From positions 434,001 through 498,000 of the forward strand of contig NZ_JAAGOW010000005.1 of NCBI RefSeq assembly GCF_010499245.1: DNA of 64,000 bases, in the 5' to 3' direction. The notes beneath the pieces are model-generated. The model was not told where the DNA came from. It searched no databases and saw nothing but the letters and a program-made list of their open reading frames with translations. The position numbers and the translations under genes were made by a program. Source of the stretch: Variovorax sp. WS11 (GTDB taxonomy: Bacteria; Pseudomonadota; Gammaproteobacteria; Burkholderiales; Burkholderiaceae_C). Shown here piece after piece: positions 1-10,914 of this stretch. Positions within the stretch are counted from its first letter, which is position 1, and the number at the start of each line of letters is the position of its first letter.

Positions 1-780
1 GTATTCCATGCGCTTGGCCCAGATGGTGATCGGCAGCAGCACGGCGAAGTACGCCACCGCGATGAAGGTGTAGACCTCGAGCGGGCGGTAGGTGTCGTGC
101 GCGATCACCTGGCCCTGGTACAGCAGGTCCGGCACGGCCAGCACCGAGAGCAGCGAGGTGTTCTTCAGCTGCATGATCGACTGGTTCATCAAGGGCGGGA
201 CCATCTTCTTGAAGGCCTGCGGCAGGATGATCCGCCGCATCAGCTGGAAGCGCGTCATGCCCAGCGCCTTGGCCGCCTCGGTCTGGCCGAGGTCGATGGA
301 GATGATGCCGCCACGGACGATCTCCGAGTAGAAGGCGCCGCCGTACAGCGCCAGGCACAGGGTGGCGGCGCCCATCGCGGACATCTCGATGCCCGTGAGC
401 ACCGGCAGCGCGTAGTAGAACCACACCAGTTGCACCAGCACGGGCGTACAGCGGAACACCTCGATGTAGGCGCGCAGCGGCGCCGTCAGCAGCGGGTTGC
501 TGGAGAGCCTGCCGAGGCCGGTCAGCAGGCCGACCAGGAGGCCGAGGATCACGCAGATGACGGTGAAGACCAGCGTGTAGAGCAGGCCCGTGGCCAGCAG
601 GGTGCGGTACTTCCAGAGGACGGCGAAGTCCCAGTCGTAGCCGGCCGCCGCTGCGCCCGGCGCGACCCCCGTGAAGTGCTTCGCCGCGGCCCACAGGCCG
701 GCGATCGCAAGCACCACCAGCAGTGCCATCCCCAGGTGGGAGCGGCCCTTGTCTTCCGCCGCAGGCTCAGCGTATTGCAT
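1..780 (-). CDS. Amino-acid ABC transporter permease (His/Glu/Gln/Arg/opine type), 3' end cut by window
   Basis: Inner-membrane permease of a polar amino-acid importer. The frame is open from an ATG at 780 to base 1 (260 codons, no stop), so only the extreme C-terminus lies outside the window. The N-terminal hydrophobic segment (about residues 16-34) is followed by a ~20-residue linker and further membrane helices. The family EAA loop is visible as EAAKALGMTRFQLMRRIILP, the site that docks the ATPase, and is followed by MNQSIMQLKNTSLL, typical of HisMQ/GlnP-type permeases. It starts 10 bases after the receptor gene at 791-1627, so the two form an operon; the ATPase is presumably beyond the left edge. 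The substrate cannot be read from the permease, but the neighbouring catabolic genes suggest an amino acid. Confidence 0.9.
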   Translation of the reverse strand, partial: MQYAEPAAEDKGRSHLGMALLVVLAIAGLWAAAKHFTGVAPGAAAAGYDWDFAVLWKYRTLLATGLLYTLVFTVICVILGLLVGLLTGLGRLSSNPLLTAPLRAYIEVFRCTPVLVQLVWFYYALPVLTGIEMSAMGAATLCLALYGGAFYSEIVRGGIISIDLGQTEAAKALGMTRFQLMRRIILPQAFKKMVPPLMNQSIMQLKNTSLLSVLAVPDLLYQGQVIAHDTYRPLEVYTFIAVAYFAVLLPITIWAKRMEY

Positions 781-790
781 GACTGGCTCC

Positions 791-1627
791 TCAGAACTTG
801 ATTTCGGGCGGGAAGGCGCTCGCGGGCACGCCGGCGAGTTTCTCCATGTTCTTCAGGATGATGCTGCGCACTTCGCCCTTGGTGCGGACATCGGCCAGCC
901 ACGCGTTCGTCGCCTTCTGGAAGGCGGGATCGGACTCCTTGCGCAGGCCGATGCTCACCGGCGCGGTGTAGACGGGCTGGGGGATGTACATGGTGCCGAT
1001 CGATGCGCGCTTCGCGAGCAGCGGCTGCGCCAGCAGGATCACCAGGATCTGGCAATCGGAGCGGCCCGCCTGCAGCGCCATGGTGGCGGCGCCGGAGTTC
1101 TCGAGCCGGGTGACCTCGGCCTTGGGCAGCACCTTGGTGGCGAGCTGGTCATGGCTGGAGCCCACGTCCACCACGATCTTGGTCTCGGGCGTGTTGAGCT
1201 GCTCCCAGGTCTTCTGCGGATAGCCCTTCTTGCACACCGCCGTGTAGGTGTTGTCGAAGAGGGTCTCGCTGAAGTTGACGACCTCCTTGCGCGCGGGCGT
1301 GGGAGCCATGCCGAACATCGCGTCGATCTTGTTGGCCTGGAGGTCCAGCACCGCATTGCCCCAGGTGGTCTCGACATACTCGACCTTGGCGCCCAGCTTC
1401 TGCGCCAGGCTCTCGGAAAAGTCGGGACCGAAGCCCTCCCATTTGCCGGAGGCGAGGTCCTTGTTGAAGTAGGGAATGGCGCCGGCGACGGCACCCACGC
1501 GCAGGACCTTGGTCCGCTGCACCCGGGCCATCGCGCTTTCGGCTTCCTGCGCGGACGCAAGTCCGACCGCACACACACTCGTCAGCGCCACCAGGGCACG
1601 CAAGAAAAATCGCTTTGTCGTCAACAC
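791..1627 (-). CDS. Periplasmic substrate-binding protein of amino-acid ABC transporter (family 3)
   Basis: Secreted solute receptor feeding the adjacent permease. An in-frame ORF extends to 1693, but a GTG at 1627 is preferred because GGAG lies 5 bases upstream and it gives a clean signal peptide (basic KRFF, hydrophobic core, ASAQ cleavage region near residue 26). The mature protein begins with an RTKVLRVGAV strand and ends near KNMEKLAGVP, the family-3 fold. Length is about 278 residues. It is clearly related to the second receptor at 3030-3860 (shared RVGAV.G..PY..KDL.SG.W pattern), so the island carries two receptors for one membrane system. An alternative TTG start one codon downstream is equally possible. 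Confidence 0.88.
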   Translation of the reverse strand: MLTTKRFFLRALVALTSVCAVGLASAQEAESAMARVQRTKVLRVGAVAGAIPYFNKDLASGKWEGFGPDFSESLAQKLGAKVEYVETTWGNAVLDLQANKIDAMFGMAPTPARKEVVNFSETLFDNTYTAVCKKGYPQKTWEQLNTPETKIVVDVGSSHDQLATKVLPKAEVTRLENSGAATMALQAGRSDCQILVILLAQPLLAKRASIGTMYIPQPVYTAPVSIGLRKESDPAFQKATNAWLADVRTKGEVRSIILKNMEKLAGVPASAFPPEIKF

Positions 1628-1692: not shown

Positions 1693-1721
1693 AGTCTAGA
1701 AGTCAGTGCTGTCACATTCAA
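1693..1721 (-). promoter_or_regulatory. Candidate sigma70-type promoter for the receptor/permease operon
   Basis: On the minus strand TTGAAT (1721-1716) and TAGACT (1698-1693) are separated by exactly 17 bases and lie about 65 bases before the GTG start at 1627. Each hexamer matches the consensus at four of six positions. A shared operator-like motif lies just upstream at 1753-1779, the usual place for an activator. Position and spacing are seen; function is inferred. Confidence 0.35.
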
Positions 1722-1752
1722 CGTGGCACATCGTCAGGACGACGAAAAGTTC

Positions 1753-1779
1753 TCGTCGATCCGTCAGCGCCTTCGACGA
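1753..1779 (-). promoter_or_regulatory. Operator-like inverted repeat, copy 1 of a motif shared with 9772-9799
   Basis: TCGTCGA (1753-1759) and TCGACGA (1773-1779) form a perfect 7-bp inverted repeat with a 13-base gap. On the plus strand the right part, GTCAGCGCCTTCGACGA (1763-1779), matches 15 of 17 bases of the copy at 9783-9799. The site is 32 bases upstream of the candidate -35 box, as expected for a LysR-type activator. The intergenic region 1628-1881 holds nothing else recognisable. Confidence 0.55.
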
Positions 1780-1881
1780 CTTGGACGCTCGGTCATGGAT
1801 TGCGCAAGCTTCGCGCCAAGAGCCCCGCAAGGCGACTTCAGGTGGAAAGCGCATGAGCCATGACCTTGCGGTGCCTTCCCC

Positions 1882-2997
1882 CTAGCCGGCGAAGGCGATT
1901 CGCTGCTTCTCGACGATCTTCCAATCCACTTCGACGCCGATGCCGGGGCCGGTCGGCACATGCACATGGCCCGCAGCCACGGGCGTCATCTGCGCAAGCA
2001 CGTCTTCGAGAAACACGTACTTCGGCATGTAGAACTCGCATCCCAGCGAGACGTTGGGGCTCGCCGCAATGAAGTGCGACGCAGCGGCCAAGGCAATGCC
2101 GCCTTCCCAGAGCGTGCCTCCGTAGCACGGCAGGCCGGCCGTTTCAGCGATGGCGTTGACCTTCATCGCCTTCAGGATGCCGCCGCTTTTCATGAGCTTG
2201 ATGCTGATGATGTCGGCCGCACGTTCCTGCACCGTCCTCAGCGCCTCGGCGGGCGAGAACACGCTTTCGTCCGCCATGATCGGCGTGTCGAGTGCGGCGG
2301 CGAGTTGCGCCATGGTCGCGATCGCATCGCGCGGCACAGGCTGCTCGATGAAGGTGGGATTGAATGGCTCGACCTGGCGCAGTTGACGCAAGGCCTCGTA
2401 CGGCAGCAGCCCCTGGTTGTAGTCGATCCGCAGGTCGAAGGCGTCGCCGAGATGCTCGCGCAACAAGGACAGTCGCTTCAGGTCCTCGGCCGGCGCTGCA
2501 AATCCCGTCTTGACCTTGAAGATCCGGTGGCCCTCGGCCAGCATCTGCTTCGCCAGTTCGATGTCGGCGTGGATATCGGGATTCGCGATCGAGAACGAGA
2601 AGGGGATCGTGTCGCGGAACTTGCCGCCGATCAGCACGTGGAGCGGCACCTGGGCCAGCTTGCCGCAGATGTCGAACAAGGCCATTTCGACCGCCGCCTT
2701 GGCCTCGGGGTTGGCCACGAGCGCGCGGTCGCATTCCTGCATTCGTGCGGGAATGTCTCTCGGGTCCCTTCCGATCAACACCGGGCGCAGGAAAACGTCG
2801 ATCGCATGGAACACGTTCTCGTTGGTGCCCGAGAACACTTCCCAGGCCTGGGCCTCGCCCACGCCGTCGATCCCCTGGTCGGTACGAATGCGCAGCACCA
2901 CGCGTTTGATGGAAGCCTGAATCGTCCCCACGCCCTGCGAGCGCTTCATCTTGATCGGGGACTCCAGCAAGTTCAGTTCGATCTTTTCAATCTTCAT
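1882..2997 (-). CDS. Mandelate racemase / muconate-lactonising enzyme (enolase superfamily)
   Basis: 371-residue enolase-superfamily enzyme that would abstract the alpha-proton of a carboxylate substrate. The N-terminal capping domain (MKIEKIEL...) is followed by a barrel with the expected residues: the catalytic KVK pair (FKVKTG), metal ligands in LRIDYNQG, FIEQPVP and MADES, and the second-side lysine in IKLMKSGG. This arrangement is the muconate-lactonising subgroup, which contains cycloisomerases, N-acyl amino-acid racemases, dipeptide epimerases and proline-type epimerases or dehydratases. Next to a DadA-like oxidase and lysine-type dehydrogenases, an amino-acid racemase or epimerase is more likely than a cycloisomerase; this is inference. 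It is the last gene of the minus-strand operon, 32 bases after the receptor gene. Confidence 0.88.
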   Translation of the reverse strand: MKIEKIELNLLESPIKMKRSQGVGTIQASIKRVVLRIRTDQGIDGVGEAQAWEVFSGTNENVFHAIDVFLRPVLIGRDPRDIPARMQECDRALVANPEAKAAVEMALFDICGKLAQVPLHVLIGGKFRDTIPFSFSIANPDIHADIELAKQMLAEGHRIFKVKTGFAAPAEDLKRLSLLREHLGDAFDLRIDYNQGLLPYEALRQLRQVEPFNPTFIEQPVPRDAIATMAQLAAALDTPIMADESVFSPAEALRTVQERAADIISIKLMKSGGILKAMKVNAIAETAGLPCYGGTLWEGGIALAAASHFIAASPNVSLGCEFYMPKYVFLEDVLAQMTPVAAGHVHVPTGPGIGVEVDWKIVEKQRIAFAG

Positions 2998-3029
2998 GGT
3001 TGTGACCGTCTAGAGATGAGGAAAGGACT

Positions 3030-3860
3030 TCAGATCTGGAGCTGCGGAGGAATCTTGTCCTCGCCGACATCGCCGACTTTCTTGAGGTTCTCGATGAAGA
3101 TGCGACGCATGTTCCCGCTGGCGCGTTCGGCCTTCAGCCATTGGTTGATGTGCTGGAGCCATCGCGGATCGGACTCCTTGCGCACGCCGCCGTTGGAGGT
3201 CGCGGTCTCCTCGGGCGTCAGAATGACGACCTGGCCCACGCCGGGGTTCTTGCTGGTGACCGCCAACGCCAGGGGAAGGACCAGGATCTGCGCATCGGCA
3301 CGCCCCGTCTGGACCGAGAGCGTTGCGTCGACGGCGCTGTCCAGCCGGATCAGCTGCGCCTCGCCGAGCAGCCGCGTCGCGACGACGTCGTGCGAAGACC
3401 CCTTGTCGACGGCCACGCGGACCGACGGCTTGTTGAGATCGGCCCAGGTCTTCGGACTGAACCCCTTCTTGCAGACCGCCGTGAACGCGATGCGCAACAA
3501 GGGATCGGTGAAGTCAATGACCTGAAGCCGCGCCGGCGTCGGGTTCAGGCCGAAGAAGACATCGATCTTCTGGGATTGAAGCTCCAGCACCGAATTGCCC
3601 CAGCTCGTGGGCGTGATCTCGAGCTTCGCGCCGAGGCTCTTGGCCAGCTCGCGGTAGTAGTCGGCCATGCAGCCCAGCCATTCGCCACTGACGAGGTCCT
3701 TCTTGTAGTAAGGCAGGCCGCCGTCGACCGCGCCTACCCGAATGATCTTGGTGCGCGTCACCCGCTCCCACGTCGATTCGCCGCCTTGGGCGAAAGCCAC
3801 TGGATGAAGCGCAGCCGTGGCGGCGGCGAGCGATCCGCTCAGAAAATTGCGTCGTTGCAT
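3030..3860 (-). CDS. Second periplasmic amino-acid-binding protein (family 3)
   Basis: 276-residue receptor with an N-terminus carrying twin arginines (MQRRNFLSGSLAAA), so Tat export is possible, and a cleavage region near VAFAQ (about residue 25). Family-3 features include TKIIRVGAVDGGLPYYKKD and VFFGLNPTPARLQVIDFTDP. It is a paralogue of the receptor at 791-1627. It sits in the middle of a catabolic operon, between the FAD oxidoreductase (33-base gap) and the enolase, rather than beside a permease, so it probably docks on the permease at 1-780 or on one outside the window. Confidence 0.88.
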   Translation of the reverse strand: MQRRNFLSGSLAAATAALHPVAFAQGGESTWERVTRTKIIRVGAVDGGLPYYKKDLVSGEWLGCMADYYRELAKSLGAKLEITPTSWGNSVLELQSQKIDVFFGLNPTPARLQVIDFTDPLLRIAFTAVCKKGFSPKTWADLNKPSVRVAVDKGSSHDVVATRLLGEAQLIRLDSAVDATLSVQTGRADAQILVLPLALAVTSKNPGVGQVVILTPEETATSNGGVRKESDPRWLQHINQWLKAERASGNMRRIFIENLKKVGDVGEDKIPPQLQI

Positions 3861-3893
3861 GGTCAGGGGTCCTTTCGTTGCGTGGTGGAGTCG

Positions 3894-5150
3894 TCAACCG
3901 AGAAATCGAGCGGGTCGAAAAGGCACTGGATCGATGGCGGCCGCCTCGCCCGACATCATGGCGCCCAGCAGTGTGGCGGTCCCGGGCCCGGTGCTGAAGC
4001 CGATGTGCTGATGACCGCAGGCGAGCCACAGCCCCGGCCGGCCCGGGCACTCGCCGATCATGGGCCGGCTGTCGGGCAGGGTGGGCCGGCTGCCGAGCCA
4101 GGGGTCCGTCTCCAGGCGGCCCTCCAGCGGGAAGGCCTGCCTGGCCGCTGCTTCGGCCAGGTCCAGCTGCGCGAGGTTCTTCGGCGCGTCGCGGGCCGCG
4201 AGCTGGACCCCGGTGGAAAGGCGAAGCCCCTCTTCCATCGGCGACAGCACATAGCCGCCGCCGGTGTCGTAGATGGGGCGCCCGAGCCTGGCGCCATCGG
4301 CGGCGCGATAGTGCATGTGATAGCCGCGTTCGAAGGCCATGGGCACCGGCACGCCGAGCGCATCGCCGAGGAACTCCTTGCTCCACGGGCCGAGGGCGAC
4401 CACCACATGGTCGGCTTCGCGCGTGATGCCATCCGCCGATGCGATCCGCCACGCGCCGCCGGCGCCGGCTCGCTGCAGTCCGGAGACGGCCGCCACCTCG
4501 ATCCGACCGCCACGCGAAGCGAAGAGCTTTGCATAGGCCTCGACCACGCGCCCCGGGCTGTCGACCGAGGCCGTGTCCTTGATCCACAGCGCGCGCGGAA
4601 AGACGGGCTTCAGGTCGGGCTCCAGGTCCGACAGCTCGCGGGGATCGAGCGCCTGCGTCGCGACACCGAAGCGATCGAAGGTCTCGCGCGAACGCCGGCT
4701 CCCGTCGAAGGCCGTCTCGCTGCGATAGAGGAACAGCCAGCCGTTGGTCCGCAAGCGATGCGCGATGCCAGCCTCCGCCAGCCATCGGCGGTGCTCGTCG
4801 AACGACAGCCTGATCAGCGCGTCGAGCGCGGCCGTAGTCTCGTCGTAGAAGCGCTTGCGCGCGCGGTAGAGGAACGCGATGGCCCAGGAAAGATTGCGCG
4901 CCAGGAAGACAGGGTCGTACCGGAACTGCACGCTCGTGTTCTTCAGCAGCCTCGGCAGCGAGGACCACAGCCCCGGGTTGTTGAAGGGCACCAGCGAGCT
5001 GCGCGCCATCACGCCCGCATTGCCGTAGGAAGCCTCGCGCCCCGGTGCGCCCTTGTCGAGCAGCGTCACCGCCCAGCCGCGGCGCTGCAGCTCCAGCGCA
5101 CACGAGACACCGACGATGCCGGCGCCCAGGACCACCACCGTCTTCGTCAT
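3894..5150 (-). CDS. FAD-dependent D-amino-acid dehydrogenase / amino-acid oxidase (DadA/DAO family)
   Basis: 418-residue FAD oxidoreductase. The dinucleotide motif is immediately N-terminal (VVVLGAGIVGVSCALELQRR, residues 5-24), followed by SYGNAGV, typical of DadA-type proteins. The C-terminus carries GSRPTLPDSRPMIGECP and GHQHIGFSTGPGTA, the second FAD-contact region. The ATG at 5150 is chosen because the Rossmann strand starts directly after it; the long upstream extension in frame belongs to the neighbouring gene read out of frame. It follows an ALDH7-type dehydrogenase by 43 bases. In Pseudomonas, pipecolate oxidase AmaA is a FAD oxidoreductase next to the ALDH7 enzyme AmaB, so oxidation of pipecolate or a D-amino acid such as D-lysine is the leading hypothesis. 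Confidence 0.85.
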   Translation of the reverse strand: MTKTVVVLGAGIVGVSCALELQRRGWAVTLLDKGAPGREASYGNAGVMARSSLVPFNNPGLWSSLPRLLKNTSVQFRYDPVFLARNLSWAIAFLYRARKRFYDETTAALDALIRLSFDEHRRWLAEAGIAHRLRTNGWLFLYRSETAFDGSRRSRETFDRFGVATQALDPRELSDLEPDLKPVFPRALWIKDTASVDSPGRVVEAYAKLFASRGGRIEVAAVSGLQRAGAGGAWRIASADGITREADHVVVALGPWSKEFLGDALGVPVPMAFERGYHMHYRAADGARLGRPIYDTGGGYVLSPMEEGLRLSTGVQLAARDAPKNLAQLDLAEAAARQAFPLEGRLETDPWLGSRPTLPDSRPMIGECPGRPGLWLACGHQHIGFSTGPGTATLLGAMMSGEAAAIDPVPFRPARFLG

Positions 5151-5193
5151 CGGGCGATCGAGCCGGTCGGCCAAGCCTGTTCGCGCGTGCCCA

Positions 5194-6702
5194 TCAGACG
5201 AAGGTGATGCCCTGGGCCAGGGGCAGCTCGGTGGAGAAGTTGATCGTGTTGGTGGTTCTGCGCATGTATTGCTTCCAGGCATCCGAGCCGCTCTCGCGGT
5301 CGCCGCCGGTTTCCTTCTCGCCGCCGAACGCACCGCCGATTTCGGCGCCGTTCGGCCCGATGTTGACGTTGGCCATCCCGCAGTCCGAGCCCGCGGCGGA
5401 AATGAAGGTCTCGACCTCGCGCATGTCGTTGGAGAAGATGCAGGAGGAAAGGCCCTGCGGCACATCATTGTGCACGTCGATGGCCTGCTCGAAGTCGTCG
5501 TAGGTCAGCACATACAGCAGCGGCGCGAAAGTCTCCTGGCGCACGATGGCGCTCTGCTGCGGCATGTCGACGATCGCAGGCTGCACATAGAAGCCCTTCG
5601 GGAACTCCTCCTCGAGCACCCGCTCGCCGCCGGTCAGCACCCGGCCGCCCTGCGCCCTGGCTTCGGCGATGGCCTTCTGCATGGCGACGTAGGCTGCCTC
5701 GTCGATCAAGGGCCCGACCAGCGTTCCCGGCACCCGCGGATCGCCGATGCGCAGGCCCACATAGGCCTTCACCAGCTTCTGCAGCAGCGCCTCCTTGACC
5801 GAGCGATGCACGATGAGCCGGCGCAGCGAGGTGCAGCGCTGGCCCGCCGTGCCGACCGCGCCGAACAGGATTGCGCGCAAGGCCATGTCGAGGTCGGCGG
5901 CCGGCGTCACGATCATCCCGTTGTTGCCGCCGAGCTCGAGGATGCGCTTGCCGAAGCGGCTGGCCACCTTCGGACCCACGGCGCGACCCATGCGGGTGGA
6001 GCCGGTGGCCGACACCAGCGGAATCAGCGGGCTCTCCACGAGCGCCTCGGCCAGCGGCGCCTTGCCGATGACGATCTGGGCCAGGCCTTGCGGCGCCCGG
6101 TCGCCGAAGCGGGCGATGGCGCGCTCCAGCGCCTTGAAGGTGGCGAGGCCCGAGAGTGGCGCCTTCTCGGAAGGCTTGAAGATGACCGGATCGCCGCACA
6201 CCAGCGCCAGCGCCGCGTTCCACGCAAAGACGGCGCTCGGGAAATTGAAGGCCGTGATCACCGCCACCGGCCCCAGCGGATGGTATTGCTCCATGATGCG
6301 GTGGCCCGGCCGCTCGGAGACGATGGTCTTGCCGCACAGCTGGCGCGACTGCCCCATCGCGAACTCGCAGATGTCCACGCCTTCCTGGACCTCGCCCAGG
6401 CCCTCCTCCACGATCTTGCCGGCTTCCACCGAGACGACGTGGCCGATGTCGCGCTTCGCACTGCGCAGCTCCTCGCCCCACAGCCGGACCAACTCGCCGC
6501 GCACCGGCGCGGGGACCACGCGCCATTGGAGAAAGGCGGCCTTCGACCGGGCGACGATCTCGTTCATCGCGGAGGCCGGCGTCTCGTGCAGCCGGGCGAG
6601 CTCGGCGCCATCGATCGGCGAGCGCACCACCAGAGAGCCCCCTTGGACCTCGGCGGGCTCGATGCCGCAGCGCTTGAAGCAGGACAGCAGTTCTTCGCTC
6701 AT
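5194..6702 (-). CDS. ALDH7 (antiquitin) family L-piperidine-6-carboxylate / alpha-aminoadipate semialdehyde dehydrogenase
   Basis: 502-residue NAD-dependent aldehyde dehydrogenase predicted to oxidise alpha-aminoadipate 6-semialdehyde (in equilibrium with piperidine-6-carboxylate) to alpha-aminoadipate in lysine and pipecolate breakdown. The catalytic base is E257 (ILELGGNN) and the nucleophile C290 (GTAGQRCTSLRR). The C-terminal block GGEKETGGDRESGSDAWKQY followed by MRRTTNTINFS is the hallmark of the antiquitin/AmaB group and separates it from other ALDHs. Here one glycine of the usual GGGRESG run is aspartate. The start at 6702 follows the ThDP gene by 17 bases, so it is co-transcribed with it. 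Assignment to ALDH7 is firm; the in vivo substrate is inferred. Confidence 0.9.
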   Translation of the reverse strand: MSEELLSCFKRCGIEPAEVQGGSLVVRSPIDGAELARLHETPASAMNEIVARSKAAFLQWRVVPAPVRGELVRLWGEELRSAKRDIGHVVSVEAGKIVEEGLGEVQEGVDICEFAMGQSRQLCGKTIVSERPGHRIMEQYHPLGPVAVITAFNFPSAVFAWNAALALVCGDPVIFKPSEKAPLSGLATFKALERAIARFGDRAPQGLAQIVIGKAPLAEALVESPLIPLVSATGSTRMGRAVGPKVASRFGKRILELGGNNGMIVTPAADLDMALRAILFGAVGTAGQRCTSLRRLIVHRSVKEALLQKLVKAYVGLRIGDPRVPGTLVGPLIDEAAYVAMQKAIAEARAQGGRVLTGGERVLEEEFPKGFYVQPAIVDMPQQSAIVRQETFAPLLYVLTYDDFEQAIDVHNDVPQGLSSCIFSNDMREVETFISAAGSDCGMANVNIGPNGAEIGGAFGGEKETGGDRESGSDAWKQYMRRTTNTINFSTELPLAQGITFV

Positions 6703-6719
6703 GTTCTTTCCTTCGGTGT

Positions 6720-8471
6720 TCAGAGATAAGCCACGTCTTCCGGCGCCAGTGCCAGCGGGTCCAGGCCCTTCTTGCTGAGCCACGAATAGACCGGCGGGAC
6801 GCGATCCGCCAGGGACTCCACGCGGATGTCCATCAGGCAGGGACCGTCGTAGGCGAAGGCCTCGTCGAGCGCCTCGATCAGCTGCTCGGGCGTCTCGACC
6901 GTCCAGGCCTTGATGTCGAAGGCCTCGGCGATCGCCTGGCCGCGCGGCGGCAGGAAGTCGACGCCGAAGCATTCGTCATGGCCCTTGAGGCGGTGCAGGC
7001 CCTTGATCCAGCCGAAGCAGCCGTTGTTGAACAGCATCAGCAGCGCGGGGACGCGCTTGCGCACCAGCGTCTCCAGCTCGCCCACCGTCATGTTGAAGGA
7101 GCCATCGCCGAACATGCCGATGGGACGGCGATTCTTGTCGGCATACCAGGCACCCACCACCGCGGGAATCGCGGACCCCAGGCCGCCGAAGGCGCGCGGA
7201 ATCACGAAGCGGGTGCGGCGGTCGCCGATGCGCAGGAAGCGCGTCATGTAGGGCGTGGGCGTGCCGGCGTCCGAGAGGATATGGACGGTCTTGCCGTACT
7301 TCTCAAGGCGCCGGCTGAACTCGCGGACCACGCGTTCCGGCCGCAGCGGCACGCTGTCCAGCGCGAGCACCGACTCGGCATGCGCCCAGAAGTTGGCCCG
7401 GTATTCGTTGAGCGTGTCGACCCAGGGCTGGTGCTTCGAGGCATCGAAGTCCACCGGCGTCTGCGCCAGCATCTGCTGCAGCACGAGCTGGGCATCCCCC
7501 GCGATCGACAGCAGGTTCTCGTAGTTGTTGGCCAGCCGTTCGGGGTTGATGTCGATCTGGACCACGCGCTTGTTGAGGCTGGCCTTCGGGAAGGTCCAGC
7601 CCACCGTCACCACCGAGCCCATGCGCGAGCCGACGAAGATCGTGAGGTCGGAGTCCTCGAGCGCGCGGTTGGCATGCGGATGGAAGCCGTTGTCGCCGAT
7701 CACGCCGATCGCCAGCGGATGGTCGTCCGGCAGCGCGCCCTGCCCGGTGATGGTGTTGACCACCGGGACGTTCAGCCGCGCGGCCACCTCGGTGAGCGCG
7801 CTGCCCGCGCAGGAACGGTTCACGCCGCCGCCCGCGACGAAGAGCGGCTTGCGCGCCGCGGCCAGCAGGCGGAACAGTTCGTCGAGCTTGCCGGGCGCGG
7901 GCGCCATCGGGAAGGCCGGGAAGGTCTTGCACTCCTCCTCGGCATGCAGGGAGATCCTCGACGGGTCGACCTCGGCGAGCAGCATGTCCTCGGGGATCTG
8001 CAGGTGCACGGCGCCCGGCGTGCCCGAGCAGGCCACGCGGAAGGCGCGGCGGATGATCTCCGGCAGCTTCTCCGCCGACTTGATCTGCACCGACATCTTG
8101 GTCACCGGCTCGAAGAGCCTGGCGCAATCGAGCTCGGTGATCATCCCGCGGCCCTCGCCGGGCAGCGGCAGGTCGATGGTCAGCAGGATGACGGGCACCG
8201 AGGAGGCGTTGGATTCCGCCACCGGCGGCAGCGAATACATGGCGCCCGCGCCCGAGGGGCATTCGAAGATGCCGGGCTTGTCGGTCAGCCGCGCATAGGC
8301 GTCGGCCATGAAGCCGGCCGAGCGCTCGTCCCTCGCCATCACGTGTTCGATCTCGCCCTTGCGTTGCTGCAGCGCTTCGTAGAAGGGGACGTTGGTGTCG
8401 CCGGGCACGCCGAACAGGACGTCGACACCATAGTTGATCAGCATTTGAACGAGCACGTCTGCGCCACGCAT
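6720..8471 (-). CDS. Thiamine-diphosphate-dependent enzyme, acetolactate-synthase-like
   Basis: 583-residue ThDP enzyme with the three-domain layout of the acetohydroxyacid synthase/oxoacid decarboxylase family. The proton-relay glutamate is E49 (ARDERSAGF), the central domain follows, and the C-terminal ThDP motif begins at GDGSFNMTVGELE and ends with LMLFNNGCFGWIK. The ATG at 8471 is chosen because MRGADVLVQMLINYG is the normal family start. It lies between a lysine-6-dehydrogenase-like gene and an ALDH7 gene, a context in which acetolactate synthesis makes little sense. Decarboxylation or C-C cleavage of a 2-oxoacid such as 2-oxoadipate is possible but unproven. No FAD-specific signature was identified. 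Confidence 0.85.
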   Translation of the reverse strand: MRGADVLVQMLINYGVDVLFGVPGDTNVPFYEALQQRKGEIEHVMARDERSAGFMADAYARLTDKPGIFECPSGAGAMYSLPPVAESNASSVPVILLTIDLPLPGEGRGMITELDCARLFEPVTKMSVQIKSAEKLPEIIRRAFRVACSGTPGAVHLQIPEDMLLAEVDPSRISLHAEEECKTFPAFPMAPAPGKLDELFRLLAAARKPLFVAGGGVNRSCAGSALTEVAARLNVPVVNTITGQGALPDDHPLAIGVIGDNGFHPHANRALEDSDLTIFVGSRMGSVVTVGWTFPKASLNKRVVQIDINPERLANNYENLLSIAGDAQLVLQQMLAQTPVDFDASKHQPWVDTLNEYRANFWAHAESVLALDSVPLRPERVVREFSRRLEKYGKTVHILSDAGTPTPYMTRFLRIGDRRTRFVIPRAFGGLGSAIPAVVGAWYADKNRRPIGMFGDGSFNMTVGELETLVRKRVPALLMLFNNGCFGWIKGLHRLKGHDECFGVDFLPPRGQAIAEAFDIKAWTVETPEQLIEALDEAFAYDGPCLMDIRVESLADRVPPVYSWLSKKGLDPLALAPEDVAYL

Positions 8472-8557
8472 ATGTAGGACTCCAGGTTTGGATGGATGAA
8501 AGAAAAAGGAAAAAGGCAGGCCGCCGGCGGACTGCCGGCGCCGGCTGGCGGAATCGA

Positions 8558-9694
8558 TCAAGCGTGCGCGGGTTCGCCGGTGTGCTCTTGCGCCGCGGGT
8601 GCGACGCCGAGGCTGGTGTAGTAGTGGCCGACCTTGGTGGCCAGGAACTGCTCGAGCGGCACCTGCTCCTGCCCGACGAAGCCGGCTTGCGGCAGCTTGC
8701 CTTCCTGCAGCAGCTCGAGCACGCCCACCACGCCGGCCGCGGTGGTCAGCTCGATCGCGGTGCGCTGCTGGCCGCGCAGCGGGGCACCGAAGACGCGGCC
8801 CACGCGGGTCTCCTGCTCGAAGCGGCCCTCCCGCAGGCCCGAGGCGGCGGCGAACAGGATCACCACGTCTTCGCGGCTGTGCGGCACCGCATGCTCGAGC
8901 ACCTGGCGGAGAAGATCGCGGCGCTCGATCAGTCGCAGGTCATGCAGCAGGAAGTCCATGGCATCGCGGTGGCCCGGATAGCGGATCGTCTTGTAGTCGA
9001 GGTTGCGCACCTTGCCCTTCAGCGTCTCGCAGAGCGTTCCCAGTCCGCCGGAGGTGTTGAAGGCCTCGAAGGCCTCGGCATCCAGCGTGAAGGTCTCGTG
9101 CCCTTCGAGCGGCTGGACGGACACCAGCTGTCCGTTGACGATCGCATCGCACGCGTTGCAGTACTCGTTGATGACGCCGTCGATGCTCCAGGTGAAGTTG
9201 TAGCGCAGGCTGTTGGTCGCGTTGCGGGTCAAGGCGCCGACGCGCAGGCGCAGGTCGTAGAGCTCGTCGAAGCGCCCCGCGAGATGGCCGCCGAGCATGC
9301 CGATCACGCCCGGGGCCAGGCCGCTTTGGGGCATCAGGACCGAAGTCGCGGTGGCGGAGAGCTCCCGGATCGCACGCGTGGCGGCCACGTCCTCGGTCAG
9401 GTCGAAGTAGTGCACGCCCCGCCTGGCGGCCTCGGTGGCCACGCGGCGTGCCAGGTAGAACGGCAGCGCATTGATCACCACCGCATGCGCCGAGAGCGCG
9501 GCGCCCAGTTCGGCGTCGCTCTCGACGTTCAGTTCGATCCGGCGCACAAGGCGATCGCTCTCGACGCTGCGGCCCGGCTTCAGGTCCGCCAGGGTGACGG
9601 GAATGCGGTGGTACTCCGCGATCATGTCCGCCACGGTGCTGCCGACCTTGCCGGCGCCCAGGACCAGGACATTCTTGAATTGAAGCTTGGACAT
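8558..9694 (-). CDS. Saccharopine dehydrogenase-like protein, candidate lysine 6-dehydrogenase
   Basis: 378-residue NAD(P)-linked dehydrogenase with an N-terminal Rossmann motif (VLVLGAGKVGSTVADM, glycines 13, 15 and 18) and the saccharopine-dehydrogenase domain arrangement (VINALPFYLARRVATEAARR, then SGLAPGVIGMLGG). Single-domain members of about this length include lysine 6-dehydrogenase, which converts lysine to alpha-aminoadipate semialdehyde, the substrate of the ALDH7 enzyme two genes downstream. That match makes lysine or a close analogue the best guess. The ATG at 9694 is preceded by GGAGAAAG on the minus strand. First gene of a six-gene minus-strand operon (9694 to 1882) with an 86-base gap before the ThDP gene. 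Confidence 0.8.
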   Translation of the reverse strand: MSKLQFKNVLVLGAGKVGSTVADMIAEYHRIPVTLADLKPGRSVESDRLVRRIELNVESDAELGAALSAHAVVINALPFYLARRVATEAARRGVHYFDLTEDVAATRAIRELSATATSVLMPQSGLAPGVIGMLGGHLAGRFDELYDLRLRVGALTRNATNSLRYNFTWSIDGVINEYCNACDAIVNGQLVSVQPLEGHETFTLDAEAFEAFNTSGGLGTLCETLKGKVRNLDYKTIRYPGHRDAMDFLLHDLRLIERRDLLRQVLEHAVPHSREDVVILFAAASGLREGRFEQETRVGRVFGAPLRGQQRTAIELTTAAGVVGVLELLQEGKLPQAGFVGQEQVPLEQFLATKVGHYYTSLGVAPAAQEHTGEPAHA

Positions 9695-9709
9695 TTTCTT
9701 TCTCCAGTC

Positions 9710-9724
9710 GGGCAAGGCTTGCCC
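9710..9724. promoter_or_regulatory. 15-bp palindrome in the leader of the amino-acid catabolic operon
   Basis: GGGCAAG and CTTGCCC flank a single central base, 16 bases before the ATG at 9694. The site is inside the untranslated leader, between the likely promoter and the ribosome-binding site. It could be a repressor operator or an RNA hairpin affecting translation. Only the symmetry is seen. Confidence 0.35.
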
Positions 9725-9771
9725 CTTGAAAGAAATGTAGGAGTGAGGCGCGACGGATGGTAGAGAGCAGA

Positions 9772-9799
9772 TCGTCGAAAGAGTGAGTGCCTTCGACGA
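9772..9799 (-). promoter_or_regulatory. Operator-like inverted repeat, copy 2 of the shared motif
   Basis: TCGTCGAA (9772-9779) and TTCGACGA (9792-9799) form a perfect 8-bp inverted repeat with a 12-base gap. It begins 78 bases upstream of the operon start at 9694 and shares arms and inner sequence with 1753-1779. A weak -10-like TACATT lies between it and the gene. Likely bound by the adjacent LysR protein or another common regulator; this is inference. Confidence 0.55.
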
Positions 9800-9827
9800 A
9801 ATGACGGCTGGCTTCGTCAGCCTGTTG

Positions 9828-9854: not shown

Positions 9855-10772
9855 TCACCGGCGCTTGAACACCGAGAAGTTCTGCCGGATCTCCTCCACG
9901 AGCCGGCCGGCAGCCACGGACAGCGGCCGCCCCTGGCGCACGACCAGCCTCACTTTCGCCTTCCTGCAAAGCGGATGGGCGAGGTCCAGTGCCACGAGAT
10001 GGCCGGCCTCGACCTCCGGGGAGGCGGCCAGGCCGGCGCCGATGAAGGTCACACCGTCCGTGGACCGCACGAAGCGCTTGAGGCCCACCACCGAATTGCT
10101 GCGGAACGTGGGGTGCAGCTTCACATGCTCCGCATACTCGAGCAGTTCCACCAGCCTTCCGACGCCGTAGCCCGGCGGCATGAGGCCCAAGGGAAAGGCC
10201 AGGATCTGCCGCACTTGAAGGGGCCCGGCGATCTTCGTCAGCGGATGCCCCGCCCGAACCAGGAGCTTCGCCGGTGCCGCGGCACTGGCGACGACATGCA
10301 GCTGCGGATCGGACTGCGGGTTGTACGCGAGGCCGATGTTCGCCGAATCGTCCGCAATTGCGGCGAGCAACTCGCTCACGGGCAGCGCGTCGAGCACCAC
10401 CGAGAGCTTCGGATGCGCATTGCAGAACGGCGCCACGATCTCCTCCAGCAGGCCGTCGATGAAGCCCTCGCTCACGACGATGCGCACGCCTCCCGCATCC
10501 ATCGACTCGACAGCGCTCAGCCGCTCGGCCAGTTGTTCCCGATGCGCCTGGCAGCCCCTCCAGTAGTCGAGCAGGTGGAGCGCAGCATCGGTGGGCGCGA
10601 CGCCGCGCGCCTGCCTTTCGAACAGCGTCAGCCCCAGCTCTTCCTCGAGCAATGCGACCTGGCGCGTGATGACCGAAGGCGCCGTGTTGAGCGCATCCGC
10701 AGCGCCGCGGATGGAGCCGTGGACGAACACCTCATGGAAGTACTTCAGCCGCTTCTGGTTGATCTCACGCAT
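9855..10772 (-). CDS. LysR-family transcriptional regulator
   Basis: 305-residue LysR protein. The winged helix-turn-helix occupies about residues 8-65 ([20 protein letters not shown], then [20 protein letters not shown]); the effector-binding domain follows. Replacement of the common LTQPAVS helix by [11 protein letters not shown] is typical of one LysR subgroup. It is divergent from the Bug/M81 operon starting at 10915 and lies directly upstream of the amino-acid operon on the same strand, so either or both could be targets. A perfect inverted repeat in the divergent region (10792-10808) fits autoregulation plus activation of the Bug gene. Confidence 0.9.
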
Positions 10773-10791
10773 GGTTTCAGTCCGAGGAAGT

Positions 10792-10835
10792 GTTGCTCAT
10801 CGAGCAACGAAGTCCCCAACAAATTGCTGTTGCTC
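10792..10835. promoter_or_regulatory. LysR-box candidate: GTTGCTC inverted repeat plus a third half-site
   Basis: GTTGCTC (10792-10798) and GAGCAAC (10802-10808) form a perfect inverted repeat around ATC and contain a T-N11-A LysR core (T10794 to A10806). A third GTTGCTC lies at 10829-10835, 37 bases (about 3.5 helical turns) away. Together they match the strong recognition site plus activation site layout of LysR regulators between divergent genes (10772 minus, 10915 plus). Confidence 0.6.
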
Positions 10836-10914
10836 GAACGCATGCTACGCCAAACAATCCGCTTCGCCCAACGCCCTACCCACGAAAGACGCTGTTCGAA
10901 AGAAAGAGGACGCC

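Follow-up and report, generated by a model that had tools for sequence, protein, structure and literature searches.

The closest described systems are local regulators of the Lrp/AsnC family (statements on cited papers refer, here and below, to the parts of them that were covered). PutR of Caulobacter crescentus is a Lrp-like activator of proline catabolism that responds to proline (PMC6168545). LysM of Sulfolobus is a lysine-responsive member of the same family (PMC4977709, PMC4046817). Here we describe three operator-like arrays, named sites 1, 2 and 3, in and beside a stretch of 64,000 nucleotides from the soil bacterium Variovorax sp. WS11 (contig NZ_JAAGOW010000005.1, positions 434,001 to 498,000). 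This stretch is called the window, and plain coordinates below are its own. Site 1 precedes an uptake operon starting with the receptor gene SBP1, and site 2 precedes a catabolic operon starting with the saccharopine-dehydrogenase-like gene SacDH. Judging from sequence comparisons, it is likely that a local Lrp/AsnC-family protein binds the arrays of sites 1, 2 and 3 and activates a small regulon for lysine uptake and degradation. As a candidate new regulon of a local Lrp/AsnC protein the system is well supported, with a concrete regulator and three promoters proposed for lysine use in Variovorax.

The candidate would resemble PutR, a local Lrp-like activator of an amino acid catabolic gene, responsive to the substrate and encoded divergently beside its target (PMC6168545). 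However, PutR acts on proline genes, whereas here the genes are those of lysine, several promoters carry the array, and the gene of the regulator frequently does not neighbour them. No PutR operator is described in the covered parts of PMC6168545. LysM is the best NCBIfam match of the Variovorax protein (NF040947, 76.9 bits), which was not filed as LysM because this score is far under the cut-off of 180. Moreover, LysM is archaeal, and its main local target is a lysine biosynthesis operon (PMC4977709, PMC4046817). BkdR, MdeR, regulators of the AsnC type and FL11 are likewise local members of the Lrp/AsnC family, encoded divergently from the target (PMC8707732). The palindromic site of FL11 has a 5-3-5 layout, and the periodicities named for homologues are 7-8, 18 or 30-31 bp (PMC8707732); the steps of the Variovorax arrays, 20-22 bp, are not among these values. 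The likely lysine route is similar to the 2-oxoadipate/HglS route of Pseudomonas putida (PMC7286885), as the Variovorax HglS homologue scores above the family cut-off, but entry into the route appears to proceed via the saccharopine-dehydrogenase-like enzyme. The covered parts of PMC7286885 describe no regulation of the HglS route. A literature search of open-licence PMC papers found no earlier description of this lysine route being regulated by an Lrp/AsnC protein.

Operator arrays locked to predicted promoters

At each promoter, GWCGA half-sites recur about 21 bp apart and are followed by 8 bp, the -35 box, 17 bp and the -10 box. Site 1 (1730..1779, minus strand) consists of GTCGAA (1777-1772), GACGAG (1757-1752) and GACGAT (1735-1730) with steps of 20 and 22 bp. 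The predicted boxes of the uptake promoter are TTGAAT (1716..1721, minus strand), 8 bp past the last half-site, and TAGACT (1693..1698, minus strand), 17 bp past the former. Site 2 (9771..9818, minus strand) consists of GACGAA (9818-9813), GTCGAA (9797-9792) and GACGAT (9776-9771) with steps of 21 bp. The same distances lead to a poor -35-like box, TACCAT (9757..9762, minus strand), and to the -10 box TACATT (9734..9739, minus strand), both predicted. Site 3 (L005:4820-4907, or G000:C1:426820-426907) lies about 7.1 kb to the left of the window. Its layout is GACGAA-21-GACGAT-N8-TTGTGC-N17-TAGACT, the promoter boxes again being predictions. Thus the layout GACGAT-N8-(-35)-N17-(-10), with predicted boxes, is identical at all three promoters of this genome. 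Site 3 precedes a gene for a protein without a Pfam family, presumably similar to aspartate/glutamate racemases, and then an aspartate-dehydrogenase-like gene.

Computational analysis established that the arrays exist and are conserved, that their register relative to the predicted promoters is fixed, which genes they accompany, and that they are associated with an Lrp/AsnC gene. In the alignment (A1) of 27 SacDH promoters, 16 SBP1 promoters and one further promoter, trimmed by us to a common length and register, 15 positions are invariant across the 44 sequences. The steps between half-sites are 20-22 bp in the alignment, as in the arrays. Two rows had been dropped from the 29 near SacDH promoters aligned (L062, L064) and two from the 18 SBP1 promoters (L063, L064), and 23 more divergent SacDH promoters (L066-L088) were excluded from training. 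A further feature of all 44 promoters is an invariant G-N-C in the spacer between -35 and -10, 22 bp past the last half-site (68 and 70 in the numbering of the first row of A1). It might be a fourth contact or half-site.

The original prediction, made from the letters of the window, consisted of two sites, TCGTCGA-N13-TCGACGA at 1753..1779 and TCGTCGA-N14-TCGACGA at 9772..9799. The arms, gaps and coordinates are correct, direct reading confirms the match of 15 out of 17 bases between the right halves, and both sites are intergenic, each upstream of its named operon (receptor/permease and six-gene catabolic). However, the two sites are fragments of larger, promoter-locked operators. They are not equivalent relative to the promoters: the arms correspond to minus-strand half-sites 1 and 2 at site 1 and to half-sites 2 and 3 at site 2. 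The statement that such a match is unlikely by chance holds within the window, where TCGTCGA-N11..16-TCGACGA has two matches against none in 100 shuffles, but the arms alone are unspecific genome-wide (with gaps of 8-20, 11 matches in 8.49 Mb against four for the backward control). Similarly, related operators are conserved at both promoters in relatives, but the 7-base arms are not kept letter for letter at the orthologues of site 1. Neither arm is so kept in any of the 15 aligned orthologous promoters, where the outer arm (1773-1779) is poorly kept and the core of the inner arm, GACGA, is present in 15 of 15.

Operators of the Lrp/AsnC type are pseudo-palindromes, 13-17 bp long and with a short central part, that recur in phase, and such palindromes were found in part of the promoters. 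The consensus TTCGTCAnnnTGACGAA was read by us from loci of other genera with the Lrp gene divergent to SacDH (it is perfect in L104). Its best single match at site 1 is ATCGTCAGGACGACGAA at 1730..1746 (12 of 14 positions), and site 2 contains a degenerate version, GCCGTCATTTCGTCGAA at 9792..9808 on the minus strand (10 of 14 by direct count). At least 11 of 14 positions agree in 9/18 SBP1 promoters, in 23/52 SacDH promoters of the genus (11-13 positions) and in 6/20 promoters of other genera, compared to 0.8-1.2% of shuffles; the last group is not independent of the choice of consensus, because TTCGTCAnnnTGACGAA was read from loci of other genera. Altogether 38 of the 90 promoters reach this level, and 52, including site 2, are below it. 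In the window the palindrome has seven matches against 1.6 expected; site 1 is the sole one with two mismatches, and site 2 is not among them. Genome-wide, with at most three mismatches, there are 574 matches against 258 for the backward control, and therefore the single palindrome is too degenerate to serve as a search key. Only the composite array is specific.

A rigid matrix was trained on the 27 SacDH promoters, without those of the window and of the closest relative. It scored 40.4 at site 2 (23.2 on the other strand) and 23.0 at a new place, L005:4854-4908, namely site 3, the best unrelated score being 9.5. It barely found site 1 (9.2 on the opposite strand, under the chance value of 9.5). 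A rigid matrix trained on 15 SBP1 promoters found site 1 only. This poor performance across classes is partly explained by one extra base between the half-sites of the SBP1 promoters in the alignment. Model R1, trained on all 44 promoters including the genome's own sites, gave three strong matches in this genome, 57.6, 53.6 and 47.1 bits, the next one scoring 18.4. Since the own sites had been in its training set, model R2 was built from 40 promoters, none from this genome or the closest relative. At E <= 1e-4 under stricter filters, R2 found in the 8.49 Mb genome site 1 (2.2e-14), site 2 (3.2e-12), site 3 (1.4e-7) and nothing else.

Orthologues of SacDH (E <= 1e-60) are present in 52 of 101 genomes of the genus, and their loci were fetched from all 51 relatives for promoter comparison. 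At E <= 1e-4, R2 matches 45 of the 101 genomes, each of which has both SacDH (present in 52) and the Lrp gene (present in 51). In each of the 45 there is a match at most 200 bp upstream of SacDH and on its strand. Six genomes with both genes missed the cut-off; upstream of SacDH, the fetched loci of five (L077, L082, L083, L084, L086) reach 20.2-24.8 bits, and the sixth, L075, has no R2 match among those listed. The model also found arrays that had not been foreseen, upstream of separate gene pairs encoding the second receptor, SBP2, and the mandelate-racemase/muconate-cycloisomerase-like enzyme, MLE, in two relatives (G087, G100). Compared with their counterparts in the catabolic operon of the window, the products show identities of 76% (SBP2) and 82-84% (MLE). 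In other genera, where 20 of 26 loci were fetched, R2 found the promoter in seven of the 20. An 88-position model of the array may be used to predict targets in unannotated genomes. A match at G018:C7 was set aside as a chance one: it is in apparently coding DNA, with a LysR-like match of 28% identity nearby. At the separate SBP2-MLE loci (L155 in G100, L156 in G087), the next reading frame after the pair looks, judged by eye, like that of a short-chain dehydrogenase.

The Lrp/AsnC gene as candidate regulator

The Lrp/AsnC gene lies outside the window, in the left flank (G000:C1:427599-428093). The protein has an N-terminal AsnC-type helix-turn-helix (PF13404, 50.7 bits, cut-off 27) and a C-terminal Lrp/AsnC ligand-binding (RAM) domain (PF01037, 60.7 bits, cut-off 25). 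Its orthologues, with identity of at least 73%, were found in 51 of the 52 genomes with SacDH and in none of the 49 without it (no match at E <= 1e-30). The probability of this co-occurrence by chance is 3e-28 if the genomes are taken as independent, a figure inflated by their relatedness. In 48 of the 51 fetched loci, the Lrp gene is within the fetched stretch. In the remaining three, it is 0.3 kb past the fetched edge (G036), on another contig (G046) or absent (G007). The latter is the sole genome of the genus that has SacDH and lacks the Lrp gene, and R2 scores only 13.5 bits upstream of its SacDH. The neighbourhood in G007 (L066) is different, with an aminopeptidase-like frame upstream and an aminotransferase-like frame downstream, as seen by eye. 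In other genera, 15 of the 20 fetched loci have an Lrp match; in 12 of the 20 the mapped gene divergent to SacDH is the Lrp gene, with identity of at least 64% in nine.

That sites 1 and 2 share one regulator, as the original prediction held, is very likely given the conserved and related operators at both promoters, although not with the LysR protein it had in mind. To compare the sites in the absence of training overlap between classes, which R2 had seen both of, model R3 was trained solely on SacDH promoters, 25 in number and all from other species. It was run on the window with the left flank, 78 kb in all (2 kb counted twice). The three distinct places that it ranks highest are site 2 (57.3 bits, E = 8.8e-17), site 3 (21.2) and site 1 (17.4), the best unrelated score being 14.8. 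The separate SBP2-MLE promoters of the two relatives score 44.5 and 42.3 bits (3.6e-12 and 1.8e-11). One class is thus clearly formed by sites 2 and 3 together with the SBP2-MLE promoters.

Several observations weigh against a single Lrp/AsnC regulon. The genomes are related, and the counts overstate their independence; 25 of the 45 R2-positive genomes supplied training sequence and 20 did not. In this genome no array was seen upstream of the genes for the Lrp protein, HglS and the aminotransferase. One R2-positive locus of another genus (L092) has no Lrp match within its 11 kb. The remaining points concern site 1. The 17.4 bits of R3 are on the plus strand, opposite to the promoter, and the promoter strand scores 11.0 (E = 0.025). 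At E <= 1, R3 matches only three of the 15 orthologous SBP1 promoters, L058 (18.9) and L039 (10.3) on the opposite strand and L041 (9.5) colinearly, and unrelated places reach 18.5 bits in the R3 search of loci with SBP1 promoters. Rigid profiles from one promoter class did not single out the other. As far as the sequences tell, site 1 is related to the other arrays yet more diverged, and this modest likeness is the weak point of the proposed regulon.

Alternatives to the proposed common Lrp/AsnC activator

One possibility is that control by the Lrp/AsnC protein extends to the catabolic operon and site 3 only, and that the uptake promoter is read through site 1 by another factor with a similar half-site. 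The modest similarity between the classes and the failure of a SacDH-only model at most orthologous SBP1 promoters agree with this. However, site 1 has the same half-site core at the same distance to -35 and -10, its palindrome match is better than that of site 2 (12/14 vs. 10/14), and the Lrp gene is present in all 17 of the 51 fetched loci of the genus in which SBP1 occurs. We therefore assign site 1 to the same set, mainly because of the half-site core, the promoter spacing, the palindrome and the gene linkage, and consider a separate factor unlikely.

In the proposed mode of action, oligomers of the Lrp/AsnC protein would touch half-sites spaced by about two helical turns (20-22 bp) on one face of the DNA. 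Dimers would stack along this face, with the contacts ending right above the -35 box, and RNA polymerase would be recruited when lysine or an intermediate of the pathway is plentiful. Binding by this protein, activation, and sensing of lysine or an intermediate are what we infer. An activator with stacked dimers is preferred because the half-sites are in fixed register upstream of -35, the catabolic -35 box is poor, and such behaviour is in line with the habits of the family. The same protein might instead be a repressor, the arrays blocking the polymerase: Lrp-like proteins are repressors, activators or both (PMC4977709), and PA2577 is a repressor (PMC8707732). This is rather improbable, as the half-sites lie upstream of the predicted -35 box, stopping 8 bp short of it, and the poor catabolic -35 box, TACCAT, is as expected of activation. 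It is conceivable, although somewhat doubtful, that the system represents an undescribed local Lrp/AsnC activator with a rigid two-turn array of about 21 bp locked to -35, possibly with a fourth half-site between -35 and -10, and with a distinct wrapping or stacking of dimers. The unusually regular step makes the array well suited to testing cleanly how oligomers of the Lrp/AsnC family bind at a promoter.

A second LysR gene, between the HglS gene and that of the transporter ATPase (L005:10280-11224), is near the lysine genes in this genome and in seven of the 51 fetched loci (identity at least 73%). However, its orthologues (E <= 1e-90) occur in 13/52 genomes with SacDH, in 3/49 without it, and in 11 of the 45 genomes bearing the array. 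Control by this protein is very improbable, and it was rejected on co-occurrence and context.

The LysR-type protein encoded at 9855..10772 (minus strand), which the original prediction named and whose gene in this genome is directly upstream of the catabolic operon, is very probably not the regulator of sites 1 and 2, and its binding to both is hardly credible at all: it was rejected by co-occurrence and gene context, as the operon is not tracked by its orthologue (11/52 genomes with SacDH, 9/49 without), only eight of the 45 array-bearing genomes have it, no match above 26% identity is present in the mapped operon loci (51 fetched), and in nine of ten fetched loci (of 21 matches) it is divergent to a TctC-M81 gene pair, with a conserved divergent region of its own. 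A plausible assignment to a neighbouring gene is thus corrected. The arrays are not conserved beside this LysR gene across genomes. What is conserved there is the region between LysR and TctC-M81, of the form TTGC...GCAACGAAG...TTGCTGTTGCTCGAA in relatives, which differs from the arrays. In the window this region (10773..10914) has its own conserved repeats, TTGCTCATCGAGCAA and TTGCTGTTGCTCGAA, and is likely to be the real target of the LysR protein.

Genes of the lysine island

The genes appear, by their protein families, to form an island of lysine uptake and degradation; all those listed for the window are on the minus strand. The first gene of the uptake operon, SBP1 (791..1627), encodes a family-3 periplasmic amino acid receptor (SBP_bac_3, 5.2e-21 on 791-1621); its GTG start at 1627 was inferred from orthologous starts. 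The best NCBIfam match is the lysine/arginine/ornithine receptor at 89.4 bits, under the cut-off of 256. The permease gene (1..780) runs off the left edge of the window, and the ATPase gene is next, beyond it.

The catabolic operon downstream of site 2 comprises six genes. SacDH (8558..9694; PF16653, PF03435) is probably lysine 6-dehydrogenase. It is followed by a thiamine-pyrophosphate enzyme (6720..8471; PF00205, PF02776, PF02775), L-piperidine-6-carboxylate dehydrogenase (P6CDH, 5194..6702; NF050084, 772.9 bits, cut-off 730) and a DadA-like FAD-dependent oxidoreductase similar to D-amino-acid dehydrogenases (3894..5153; PF01266, 2.8e-63), whose best NCBIfam match, 159 bits, is under the cut-off of 383. 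The last two genes are SBP2 (3030..3860), a second family-3 receptor, whose gene in two relatives stands apart and is preceded by an array of its own, and MLE (1882..2997), located downstream of SBP2 at these separate loci as well. The left flank (L005) contains genes for HglS (2-oxoadipate dioxygenase/decarboxylase; NF049974, 689.7 bits, cut-off 550), a FAD-linked oxidase, an aminotransferase, the Lrp/AsnC regulator and the second LysR. Based on these families, the likely route is from lysine via piperideine-6-carboxylate, 2-aminoadipate, 2-oxoadipate and 2-hydroxyglutarate to 2-oxoglutarate.

In several relatives (L039, L041, L042, L046), the uptake and catabolic operons point away from each other, and the single intergenic region between them holds both arrays. 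In the window (1882-9694), the two operons stand in tandem, which looks like the outcome of an inversion of the catabolic operon.

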